64,000 bases of DNA, taken from Salinivirgaceae bacterium (GTDB taxonomy: Bacteria; Bacteroidota; Bacteroidia; Bacteroidales; SZUA-534). Positions 59,498-64,000 of the stretch are shown piece by piece. The first letter of the stretch is position 1. Each line of letters opens with the position of its first letter. Position numbers and translations under genes: made by a program. A model generated the notes under the pieces. It was not told where the DNA came from and did no database searches. It saw only the letters and a program-made list of their open reading frames with translations. Location: assembly GCA_017474765.1 (NCBI GenBank), contig JAFVGW010000003.1, forward strand, positions 1 to 64,000. Reading direction: 5' to 3'.

Positions 59498-59541
59498 AAC
59501 CTACCAACATAGTGGGTAATAGAAAATTATTTTTACATTTG
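59498..59541 (+). promoter_or_regulatory. Operator C of the sulfur regulon with promoter
   Basis: Half sites AACCTACC (59498-59505) and AGTGGGTA (59511-59518) have a 5-bp spacer. TAcaTTTG follows at 59534-59541, 15 bp away. The right half is the least conserved of the four sites. No -33 box is seen. Confidence 0.68.
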
Positions 59542-60812: not shown

Positions 60813-61631
60813 ATGTTCGATTATACAGAAGAAGAACTAACCCGCTACTCGCGCCACATTCTGCTGAAGGACGTGGGTGTTGAGGGGCAGGAAAAGATAC
60901 GTGAGGCGAAGGTGCTGGTTATTGGTGCTGGCGGCCTGGGCGCGCCTGTGGCGATGTATCTGGCGGCCGCTGGTATTGGCACCATTGGCATTGTCGATGG
61001 CGATGTGGTTGACCTGAGCAACCTTCAGCGGCAGATTATCCACACCACGCCCGATGTTGGTCGGCCAAAGGTTCAGTCGGCCAAAGAGACGATGCAGGCA
61101 ATCAACCCGAGTGTGAAAGTGGTTGCATATCAGGATTTTCTGCGTGCCGACAATGCGCTCGACATTATTCGCGACTACGATTTTGTGGTTGACGGAACCG
61201 ACAATTTCCCCGTCAAATTCCTAATCAACGACGCTTGCGTGATGGCTGGCAAACCGTTCAGCCACGGCGGAATCTTACGCTTTGAGGGACAGACGTTTAC
61301 CTACGTTCCTGGCCACGCCTGCTACCGTTGTATGTTCAAGACACCGCCACCGCCGAACGCCGTCCCCACCTGCTCGCAGGCTGGCGTGCTGGGCGCCATT
61401 GCGGGAATGTTGGGCACAATTCAGGCTGCCGAAACACTCAAATATTTTATCGGTGTGGGCGAACTACTGACCGACAAACTGCTGACATTTAACGCAAAAA
61501 CAATGGATTTCAGAAAGATAAACGTCAAACGGCGCGAGAGTTGTCCGCTCTGCGGCACCAATCCGACAGTGACCGAACTGATTGATTATGAACAAGGTGT
61601 TTGCGACTTGGCAGCACATAAAAAGGGTTGA
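60813..61631 (+). CDS. Sulfur-carrier adenylyltransferase, MoeB/ThiF/HesA family
   Basis: The 272-residue E1-like enzyme adenylates the carrier C-terminus. The nucleotide loop GAGGLGAPVAMYLAAAGIG, the NLQRQ motif, the DGTDNFPVKFLIND segment and the catalytic-loop C187 in PTCSQAGV are present. A Cys4 zinc site is formed by C170/C173 and C244/C247. There is no rhodanese domain, so sulfur must come from another donor such as TusA or a persulfide protein. It is part of the cysK cluster. Confidence 0.92.
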   Translation: MFDYTEEELTRYSRHILLKDVGVEGQEKIREAKVLVIGAGGLGAPVAMYLAAAGIGTIGIVDGDVVDLSNLQRQIIHTTPDVGRPKVQSAKETMQAINPSVKVVAYQDFLRADNALDIIRDYDFVVDGTDNFPVKFLINDACVMAGKPFSHGGILRFEGQTFTYVPGHACYRCMFKTPPPPNAVPTCSQAGVLGAIAGMLGTIQAAETLKYFIGVGELLTDKLLTFNAKTMDFRKINVKRRESCPLCGTNPTVTELIDYEQGVCDLAAHKKG

Positions 61632-61732: not shown

Positions 61733-62212
61733 ATGGCAGACAAAAAGAAACTTTCATTGATAGCCTTTTCGGGCGAATTCGACAAACTGACGGCCGTGTT
61801 CACGCTGGCAACAGGCGCTGCGGCTGTGGGCTACGAGGTGAACATTTTCTTCACCTTCTGGGGGCTCGACGCAATCAAGCAGAAACGCGGCCGCGCCTTT
61901 GTGGGCGGCAACTGGCTCACAAAAATATTCGGCTTTATGATGGGCGGCCTGCACGCAACACCCACAAGCCGATTCAACTTCTGCGGTGCTGGTCCGCGCA
62001 TTTTCCGCAAACTGATGCGCAATAACAACGTGGCCACACTTGAGGAACTTGTTGAGGCGGCCACGGCGCTCGGCGTCAACCTGTACGCCTGCGAGATGGC
62101 GATGCACGTTCTGGGGCTCAAACAGTCCGATTTCATTCACGAGGTGAAGGACACACTCGGCGTGGCGTCGTTCCTTGAAATATCCGAAGGCGGACGGACG
62201 ATGTTTATTTGA
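61733..62212 (+). CDS. DsrE/DsrF-like sulfur-relay protein (DsrE2 type)
   Basis: The 159-residue protein has the DsrE fold: LIAFSGEFDKLTAVFTLATGAAAVGYEV and the NLYACEMAMHVLG motif with C120. A second cysteine is C84. It has a hydrophobic inserted loop (WLTKIFGFMMGGL) as in the DsrE2 subgroup, often paired with TusA and rhodaneses. It would pass persulfide sulfur within the relay. The next relay gene is tusA. Confidence 0.88.
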   Translation: MADKKKLSLIAFSGEFDKLTAVFTLATGAAAVGYEVNIFFTFWGLDAIKQKRGRAFVGGNWLTKIFGFMMGGLHATPTSRFNFCGAGPRIFRKLMRNNNVATLEELVEAATALGVNLYACEMAMHVLGLKQSDFIHEVKDTLGVASFLEISEGGRTMFI

Positions 62213-62450: not shown

Positions 62451-62675
62451 ATGGCAACACACACATTAGACATTACCAACGAGCATTGCCCGATGACATT
62501 TGTCAGGACGAAACTCAAACTGTCGCAGATTGCTGAAGGCGATATTCTTGAAGTGCTGCTCACCGAAGGCGAACCGCTCACCAACGTGCCGCGCACGGCT
62601 GTTGAACAAGGCTATAACGTGCTGAGTATCACGCACGTCGAAGGAAATATTCACAAAGTAACCATTCAGAAATAG
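62451..62675 (+). CDS. TusA-like sulfur carrier
   Basis: The 74-residue protein has the SirA/TusA fold with persulfide Cys C13 in EHCPMTFVRTKLKL. The usual CPxP motif is CPMT here, with the second proline replaced. TusA accepts sulfur from a cysteine desulfurase and passes it to DsrE-like proteins or carriers. It is directly adjacent to the JAMM gene (TAG then ATG). Confidence 0.9.
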   Translation: MATHTLDITNEHCPMTFVRTKLKLSQIAEGDILEVLLTEGEPLTNVPRTAVEQGYNVLSITHVEGNIHKVTIQK

Positions 62676-63074
62676 ATGGAACTGACAATTACCGACGAGG
62701 CTTATCAGAGTGTTCTGGCACAGGCGCAAAACGATGCGCCCGTGGAGTCGTGCGGCTACCTGCTTGGTCCTGACCGTCAAACGGTTACGGTGAATTACCC
62801 GATGCGCAATATCGACCATTCGGAGGAGCATTTCAGTTTCGACCCGCGCGAACAGTTTGCGGCCGTCAAATACGCGCGGCAGAACGGACTTGTGATTGTC
62901 GGCAACTGGCACAGCCACCCTGCGTCGCCGTCGCGGCCGTCGGCCGAGGACATTCGGTTGGCCTTCGACCCGAATATTTTGTATTTCATTCTCTCGCTCG
63001 CTGGCCCGCAGCCTGTTTTCAACGCTTTCGCGATTGCCGACGGCGAGGTGAAGGAAAAGGTGAATTTGAGATAG
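62676..63074 (+). CDS. JAMM (Mov34/MPN) metalloprotease, Mec+/HcyD-like
   Basis: The 132-residue zinc protease has a complete JAMM motif: E24, H79-x-H81, S89 and D92 (NWHSHPASPSRPSAED). In known pathways such enzymes either cut cysteine from CysO (Mec+ of Mycobacterium) or trim the extra residue of HcyS (HcyD of Wolinella). The adjacent carrier with a non-terminal Gly-Gly argues for trimming, possibly plus product release. It is the last gene of the cluster. Confidence 0.92.
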   Translation: MELTITDEAYQSVLAQAQNDAPVESCGYLLGPDRQTVTVNYPMRNIDHSEEHFSFDPREQFAAVKYARQNGLVIVGNWHSHPASPSRPSAEDIRLAFDPNILYFILSLAGPQPVFNAFAIADGEVKEKVNLR

Positions 63075-63144: not shown

Positions 63145-63165
63145 AACCTATTAAAATGATAGGTT
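63145..63165 (+). promoter_or_regulatory. Operator D of the sulfur regulon
   Basis: Half sites AACCTATT (63145-63152) and GATAGGTT (63158-63165) have a 5-bp spacer, seven perfectly symmetric positions per half. The expected -7 box about 15 bp downstream is weak (TAATGGCA). The site lies 115 bp before the encapsulin ATG. Confidence 0.7.
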
Positions 63166-63280: not shown

Positions 63281-64000
63281 ATGGCAGACAGCAACATTCA
63301 ACGCAGCATTACGACTGCAACGGCTCGCAAACTTGCGAATACTACCAAAACCCCACCGCAAATGGGGTCAATCACACCGCGGCTTCTTCTGAAACTGCTG
63401 CCGTGGACACAGGTTGAGAGCGGCACATACCGCGTCAACCGCACCAAAGTGGAACTGAAAAAGGCCGACCGCATTGCAATTCAGTATTTTGACGGCGTGC
63501 CGAGTTTCACGGCCAAAGATTTGCGACAGATTCCGCTCTTCGCAAGTATCGACCAAGAGATTGTGTCCGACCTTGCGCGCAACTTTGTGCCTGTTGAGGT
63601 GAAACGCGGTAAAAACCTTATCACTCAAGGCAAAGACAAGCAGAAATTCTTCATTGTGGCAAGCGGTCAGGCTGAGGTTATCAGCACGGGTATCCACGGC
63701 GAGGAACTGCGCATTGCCCTGCTTGGCACTGGCGAGTATTTTGGCGAGACCGACCTTTTGAGCGCCGCTAGTTCAACCGTCTCGGTACGCTCACTCACAA
63801 ACTCAACTTTCCTTCAGTTGGAAACGCCTGTGCTTGAGAAACTTATCAAAGAAAAACCGAATTTCCGCGAGCAGTTCAACAACGCTGTCGATGACCACCT
63901 GCGCCTGAAGGCCACAGTCAACGACCACGGTGAGAAGCATATCGACCTTGTCAGCGGCCACGAGGAGGACAACATTATCCCCGAAACATACATTGACTAC
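63281..64000 (+). CDS. Family 2B encapsulin shell protein with cNMP-binding domain, 3' end outside window
   Basis: The first 240 codons are open to the window end. Residues 14-53 read [15 protein letters not shown] then [12 protein letters not shown] then SGTYRVNR, the conserved N-terminus of family 2B encapsulin shells. A cyclic-nucleotide-binding-like domain follows (about 85-200, phosphate loop [10 protein letters not shown]), and then the [15 protein letters not shown] ... YIDY linker that leads into the HK97-like shell part. Family 2 shells often enclose a cysteine desulfurase. This is not a Crp-type regulator: the part after the cNMP domain is not a helix-turn-helix. Operator D lies upstream. 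Confidence 0.88.

Follow-up and report, generated by a model that had tools for sequence, protein, structure and literature searches.

The window, a stretch of 64,000 nucleotides, comprises bases 1-64000 of a contig of 181,277 bases (C61), within a 3.63-Mb assembly of 62 contigs that is 98% complete. Its last 4.5 kb hold a run of forward-strand genes for cysteine synthase, a ThiS-type ubiquitin-like sulfur carrier, an E1-like adenylating enzyme, two sulfur-transfer proteins of the DsrE and TusA types and a JAMM metalloprotease, all of them named in a preliminary description of this DNA and all recovered by Pfam and NCBIfam models (Table 1). The run leads into an encapsulin shell gene that crosses the edge of the window and is followed on the contig by genes for a cysteine desulfurase, an ATP-grasp protein, an esterase and a serine O-acetyltransferase. 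The pair formed by the ATP-grasp and esterase genes (L004:7339-9295 in the window locus) recurs near the cluster, at varied positions, in four other loci (L105, L106, L134 and L083).

Table 1. Genes of the locus and sites of the palindromic operator in the window genome (G000); positions are those of the window unless a contig is named.
Feature	Position	Strand	Match or remark
Palindrome site	46883		O-acetylhomoserine sulfhydrylase-like gene
Palindrome site	55223		TonB receptor with symporter
Palindromic operator copy ACCTACCAACATAGTGGGT	59499..59517	.	Precedes cysK; pattern ACCYAYN7RTRGGT
cysK, cysteine synthase, 310 aa	59570..60502	+	TIGR01139, 449 bits (cut-off 351)
ThiS-type ubiquitin-like sulfur carrier, 70 aa	60524..60736	+	TIGR01683, 65.5 bits (cut-off 37.5)
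E1-like adenylating enzyme (MoeB/ThiF type), without rhodanese domain	60813..61631	+	PF00899, 283 bits; PRK05690 MoeB subfamily, 283 bits (cut-off 266)
DsrE/DsrE2-like sulfur-transfer protein	61733..62212	+	PF13686, 133.5 bits
TusA-like sulfur-transfer protein (CPMTFVR)	62451..62675	+	PF01206, 70.8 bits
JAMM metalloprotease (HSHP...S..D, E24)	62676..63074	+	Desampylase model NF041370, 69.8 bits (under cut-off 130)
Palindromic operator copy ACCTATTAAAATGATAGGT	63146..63164	.	Precedes shell gene
Family 2B encapsulin shell, residues 1-240 of 479 in window	63281..64000, on to contig position 64720 (L004:4281-5720)	+	NF041163, 559.8 bits
Cysteine desulfurase, 534 aa	Contig 64720-66324, past window	+	TIGR01979 sufS, 543 bits (cut-off 475)
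ATP-grasp protein	Contig 66339-67535, past window	+	PF13535, 25.8 bits (weak)
Esterase	Contig 67540-68295, past window	+	PF00756, 37.9 bits
Serine O-acetyltransferase	Contig 68338-69225, past window	+	TIGR01172, 161.5 bits
Palindrome site, outside window	C18:53958
Palindrome sites, outside window	C24:102763/108278/114928

Shell protein and adjoining desulfurase

The gene at the window edge had been described as a Family 2B encapsulin shell from its first 240 codons, which are indeed open on the forward strand and contain both of the sequence stretches quoted in support, and the reading frame, when extended past position 64000, is complete at 479 residues. The full protein matches the Family 2B shell model NF041163 well above its cut-off of 400 bits and over profile positions 1-449 of 450, and its top sequence matches in the PDB are solved 2B shells, aligned over their full length (9bje, E = 4e-112; 9bix; 9bhu), which are followed in the match list by SrpI and other 2A shells (6x8m, E = 7e-104). 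According to Pfam, an SrpI-like shell domain (PF19307, 376 bits) covers residues 209-466, and a CRP/cNMP-type domain (PF00027) at residues 105-191 separates the N-arm from the remaining HK97 domain. On these matches, the gene is that of a Family 2B encapsulin shell: the SrpI-like domain excludes a protein that lacks an HK97-like domain past residue 240, and the completed frame with its full-length 2B match excludes one that ends shortly as a Crp-like regulator. An AlphaFold model of the shell, computed on its own alignment, reached a pLDDT of 50.5 and is too poor to use, the alignment probably being shallow in diversity.

The inserted cNMP-binding domain of the preliminary description is present as a CRP-type fold, but "cNMP-binding" applies here only as the label of that fold. 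The phosphate-cassette arginine is absent in 23 of 23 aligned shells, and the 2B domains that have been assayed bind no cyclic nucleotide (PMC12407261); control of the shell by cyclic nucleotides was rejected on these two grounds. In solved 2B shells, the CRP-type domain sits over the two-fold pores (PMC12407261). We also note that the shell is 97% identical between the window locus and a locus in a genome of a different family (L077; G221, family code f5), which suggests that the gene was transferred horizontally between rumen Bacteroidales.

Directly 3' of the shell gene lies a cysteine desulfurase gene with a long N-terminal extension, as had been predicted for the cargo. The two frames overlap by a single base, the final one of the shell stop codon (a gap of -1 bp), and among 80 loci, 53 have this overlap or a gap of 0 bp. 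The SufS domain of the window protein is preceded by ~135 residues of low complexity that are rich in proline and acidic residues, and the corresponding extension measures ~80-170 aa in rumen-type relatives. Among the relatives, fragments included, the motifs around the catalytic cysteine (RAGHHCAxP) and the PLP lysine (SGHK[IM]YGP) are kept in 78 and 77 of 82 sequences, respectively.

Within the N-terminal extension, 77 of 78 rumen-type desulfurases carry a helix-like motif resembling [VI]AxKYFxE together with FGxxxPE, and YYFL is found in none of the 78; since YYFL is present in 11 of the 12 desulfurases of other types that were compared, the rumen type seems to have exchanged this loading signal for another. 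In the 2A system of Synechococcus elongatus, cargo loading requires the disordered N-terminus, and YYFL is part of the known cargo motif (PMC8049743). The window desulfurase does not carry the 2A targeting motifs LARLANEFFS and YYFL, and with the family-2 cargo model NF041166 it scores 697 bits, below the cut-off of 800. It looks like a cargo, yet not like a typical 2A cargo, and the system offers a 2B desulfurase with a candidate cargo motif of its own, FGIGIPE.

Linkage of the shell genes to a sulfur-carrier module

A scan for the shell in one genome per species, over 84,980 species, yielded 443 confirmed places, the best 80 of which were kept; these derive mostly from rumen and gut Bacteroidales MAGs labelled Salinivirgaceae, Paludibacteraceae, Bacteroidaceae or Prevotella and, together with the window, form 81 loci in 23 clusters at 95% shell identity. 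At 51 loci, the flanks extend at least 4 kb upstream and at least 4.5 kb downstream of the shell, and all eight genes (cysK, ThiS, E1, DsrE, TusA, JAMM, shell and desulfurase) are present in 45 of these. DsrE, TusA and the desulfurase occur in 51/51, cysK in 49/51 and ThiS, E1 and JAMM in 47/51, the other four loci having DsrE, TusA, shell and desulfurase without ThiS, E1 or JAMM nearby.

The genes come in at least five orders. The ThiS-E1-JAMM genes stand in line before the shell in 39 loci and after the desulfurase in 23, with rarer placements further upstream and mostly before cysK (8 loci), divergent (1) or split (2), and at least seven changes of order are required on a quick shell tree (LG+G4). 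The block has switched sides of the shell genes more than once while staying within a few kilobases, and in nearly every order DsrE and TusA lie a short way upstream of the shell gene. Linkage that survives rearrangement in this way is strong evidence of shared function. In one split arrangement (L083/L055:157), a second, divergent desulfurase-like gene lies near the shell.

Shell and module also coincide across genomes. A 2B shell was found in 10 and a JAMM of this type in 16 of 393 Bacteroidales genomes, with both in 9, the shell only in 1 (a genome that is 65% complete), the JAMM only in 7 and neither in 376 (Fisher p = 2e-13); by genus, 7/7 shell-bearing genera include a genome with the JAMM, which is found in 10/206 genera (p = 4e-11). 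As genomes are not independent, such p-values overstate the association, and more weight belongs to the genus count and the five gene orders. Elsewhere in the phylum, ~50 small-genome species of one family (f136) bear 2B shells, with desulfurase N-terminal extensions that reach ~360 aa. The loci of this family that were read (L057-L063, L066) have the arrangement (cysK)-cysE-shell-desulfurase, and the carrier module was not found close by, so the shell is not strictly dependent on the module.

The module itself has the composition of a CysO/Mec-type set, with ubiquitin-like carrier, E1, cysteine synthase and JAMM encoded together. The window carrier ends in ...FLYFMGGGAI, two residues past the triple glycine. 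Likewise, none of 73 rumen-type ThiS proteins ends at GGG as encoded, all 73 continuing from FMGGG for at least one further residue and mostly for 1-10; such carriers would need trimming, and the JAMM protease is encoded alongside. The carrier is the sole ThiS-family gene found in the window genome, and a thiamine role for ThiS and E1 was ruled out because no ThiG was found in that genome. The carrier-linked CysK of the window and ~70 relatives reads NPxRSVKDR around the PLP lysine, the arginine being present in nearly all CysK proteins beside ThiS or DsrE. The six CysK paralogues that could be read at other places in rumen loci have NP[AG]GSVKDR, none with the arginine, which is perhaps a mark of carrier binding. 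The cysteine motif of DsrE (C[EQ]M[AST]M) is kept in 77 of 78 relatives and that of TusA (CPMTFVR-type) in 76 of 77, and the metal-site residues of the JAMM are invariant among 17 aligned relatives.

Operator, regulation and modules without a shell

The preliminary description had the shell gene share the operator of its neighbours, and this holds in the form of a 19-bp palindrome, copies of which precede both cysK and the shell gene. Genome-wide, the pattern has 10 sites against 2 for its reversed control, and 8 of the 10 precede sulfur or sulfur-linked operons. Besides the genes entered in Table 1, the units that follow such sites are the cysD-cysN-cysH operon, a porin gene, a Pst-like ABC permease pair and metY-cysK2, and the palindrome looks like the mark of the whole sulfur-assimilation regulon of the window genome. 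One Rrf2 protein was found in this genome; it is encoded directly after metY-cysK2 (C18:51010), resembles IscR and CymR, and is possibly the reader of the palindrome. In S. elongatus, the 2A shell and its desulfurase rise on sulfur starvation (PMC8049743), an induction that the regulatory setting described here would fit by analogy. The result is a candidate sulfur regulon for a system found in many rumen bacteria.

The cysK-side operator was seen in loci of the Salinivirgaceae and Paludibacteraceae types and not in those of the Prevotella type, for which reason we rejected it as a feature common to every operon of this kind. In front of the shell gene, an exact copy was found only in the genus of the window, other members of which (L067-L070) keep its position.

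In five of the seven genomes with the JAMM only, the ThiS-E1-DsrE-TusA-JAMM block, complete or partial, adjoins a NirA-like sulfite reductase. The sulfite reductase also matches TusA in L186, L187, L184 and L190, and that of L186 (7978-10320) carries a C-terminal TusA/YedF-like domain; from such a domain, sulfur could perhaps be handed directly to TusA. In L186, the neighbours of the block further include MetY, cysK, an Rrf2 regulator and apparent siroheme genes. The sulfite reductase family PF01077 was not found in the window genome or in two congeners (G229 and G371), all at least 98% complete, and the same is true of two more shell genomes with a completeness of 98% or above; in the window genome, cysD, cysN and cysH are nevertheless present. 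As PF01077 occurs in 3 of 10 shell genomes (G387, G064 and G300), as well as in 5 of 7 JAMM-only genomes, shell and sulfite reductase are not strict alternatives. Rather, there is a tendency for shell and desulfurase to occupy the place that is held elsewhere by sulfite reductase-TusA.

Proposed sulfur route and its relation to known systems

We suggest, with a probability of roughly 0.6, that the locus represents a group of sulfur-starvation operons in which an encapsulated desulfurase is coupled to protein-bound sulfur transfer and the sulfur is returned as cysteine. Around sixty shell proteins would build an HK97-type compartment, which the desulfurase would enter by means of its N-terminal extension. 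There, the enzyme would convert cysteine into alanine and an enzyme persulfide, and sulfane sulfur (as persulfide, polysulfide or S0) would collect inside, to be picked up by DsrE and TusA. On the carrier side, the JAMM would trim the residues past GGG and E1 would adenylate the exposed glycine, so that persulfide of TusA or DsrE could yield the carrier thiocarboxylate and stand in for the rhodanese domain absent from this E1. The last steps are modelled on the CysO-CysM-Mec pathway of M. tuberculosis: CysK would join the carrier thiocarboxylate with O-acetylserine, supplied by the neighbouring serine acetyltransferase, and the JAMM would cut the resulting cysteine off the carrier. The compartment may then act as a store or as an entry point for sulfur, its content returning as cysteine.

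The coupling is favoured by the identities of shell and cargo, the synteny, the co-occurrence, the operator regulon, the sole ThiS without ThiG, the conserved catalytic residues, the CysK subfamily and the N-terminal cargo motifs, as well as by the position of the module beside sulfite reductase-TusA in genomes that lack the shell; the published work on the S. elongatus 2A system (PMC8049743) and on CysO-CysM-Mec (PMC3227635) also speaks for it. Against it count the desulfurase score below the cargo cut-off (697/800) and the missing YYFL, the 4/51 loci without ThiS, E1 and JAMM, the shells of family f136 without the module and the restriction of the shell operator to one genus. The breakdown of cysteine during a shortage of sulfur is, in addition, a paradox, as it is in S. 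elongatus. More tentatively, in a proposal that we hold to be possible rather than probable, the encapsulin would be a cellular sulfur depot with a ubiquitin-like carrier as its outlet, and would form a main route of sulfane-sulfur assimilation in rumen Bacteroidales without a siroheme sulfite reductase, with shell and desulfurase standing beside the module where other Bacteroidales have sulfite reductase-TusA.

An alternative reading, which we regard as somewhat unlikely, is that of two separate pathways under one regulator. The desulfurase would then serve a store and the ThiS module would make cysteine from sulfide or other persulfides, with no sulfur passing directly between them, and their common response to sulfur shortage would explain why they sit together. 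One operator does precede both groups as well as other sulfur operons, 7/393 genomes have the module but no shell, and the shells of f136 lack a module close by; the repeated change of sides by ThiS, E1 and JAMM within a few kilobases, however, is less well explained by co-regulation alone, and the near-constant place of DsrE and TusA before the shell also speaks against separation. It is improbable that the carrier instead modifies proteins or thiolates tRNA, with the JAMM removing it from its targets, the shell desulfurase as sulfur source and cysteine synthesis not the purpose: a role in protein modification was proposed for E1-JAMM pairs (PMC1779556), and the best curated match of the JAMM is an archaeal desampylase, below the cut-off, but cysK accompanies the carrier genes in 49/51 loci and bears an arginine that its paralogues lack, serine acetyltransferase belongs to the same operon, and the shell-less module adjoins sulfite reductase and, in one locus, MetY. 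A third alternative, in which the gene codes for a Crp-like regulator or the remnant of a phage capsid and not for an encapsulin, would draw on its CRP-type domain (residues 105-191) and on an HK97 fold common to phages. We consider it practically impossible: the completed frame matches the 2B equivalog model as well as solved 2B shells over the full length, the surrounding 20 kb show no obvious phage genes, and the same cargo gene accompanies the shell in ~80 loci.

For the coupling of an encapsulated desulfurase to the carrier, the closest relatives on the shell side are the 199 operons of Family 2B shells with cysteine desulfurase cargo, in which serine acetyltransferases and rhodaneses are named as enriched accessory genes (Andreas and Giessen 2021, PMC8346489); a role of desulfurase encapsulins in storing sulfur is cited in PMC12407261. 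The present locus shares with those 2B operons the CRP-type domain in the E-loop, the adjacent SufS-type desulfurase with a long N-terminal extension and the serine acetyltransferase, but its accessory set is cysK, ThiS, E1, DsrE, TusA and JAMM, and neither "TusA" nor "sulfur carrier" occurs in the main text of that survey. With the 2A SrpI-CyD system of S. elongatus (PMC8049743), it has in common a closely similar HK97 domain (6x8m), the desulfurase cargo and the sulfur-starvation setting. The 2A shell, however, is without a CRP-type domain, its cargo carries LARLANEFFS and YYFL where the motifs here are [VI]AxKYFxE-like and FGIGIPE, and no carrier module was seen with it.

On the carrier side, the CysO-CysM-Mec cysteine synthesis of M. 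tuberculosis, the sulfur source of which was reported as unknown in 2011 (PMC3227635), likewise combines ubiquitin-like carrier, E1, cysteine synthase and JAMM in one set. Its E1 (MoeZR) has a rhodanese domain, whereas that of the window has none and is accompanied by TusA and DsrE, and mycobacterial CysM uses O-phosphoserine, whereas CysK and serine acetyltransferase here suggest O-acetylserine. Unlike CysO, the window carrier has a tail to be trimmed.

In the HcyS-HcyD-HcyF system of Wolinella succinogenes, the residue past the GlyGly of the carrier (HcyS-Ala) is trimmed by the JAMM HcyD, which also releases the amino acid, and homocysteine is made with MetY and sulfide; to our knowledge, no encapsulin belongs to this system. 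The module of ThiS, E1, JAMM, TusA and cysteine synthase was itself described by Iyer, Burroughs and Aravind (2006, PMC1779556), whose rows 4c and 4e, Wolinella included, share with the window a ThiS-like carrier, a JAB/JAMM protein, a SirA/TusA protein and, in row 4e, an E1 without rhodanese. Row 4e has sulfite reductase and sulfate-assimilation genes, to which the shell-less Bacteroidales modules beside sulfite reductase come close, whereas the window genome has shell and desulfurase next to the module and yielded no PF01077.

A stable union of shell and carrier was not found in the literature searched (supplements, subscription papers and preprints being outside its reach), nor in the main text of PMC8346489. 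A compartment coupled to protein-bound sulfur transfer had been put forward as a new arrangement; the coupling recurs in ~80 loci, but the pairing of 2B shell and desulfurase cargo was known already (PMC8346489). Shell type, cargo type and carrier module had thus all been described before, and only their coupling is new. Encapsulins with cysteine desulfurase rank among the most common ones, and the loci compared here name likely acceptors for their sulfur (DsrE, TusA and the ThiS-type carrier) together with a return path to cysteine, which makes the question of the fate of this sulfur testable with a handful of purified proteins.
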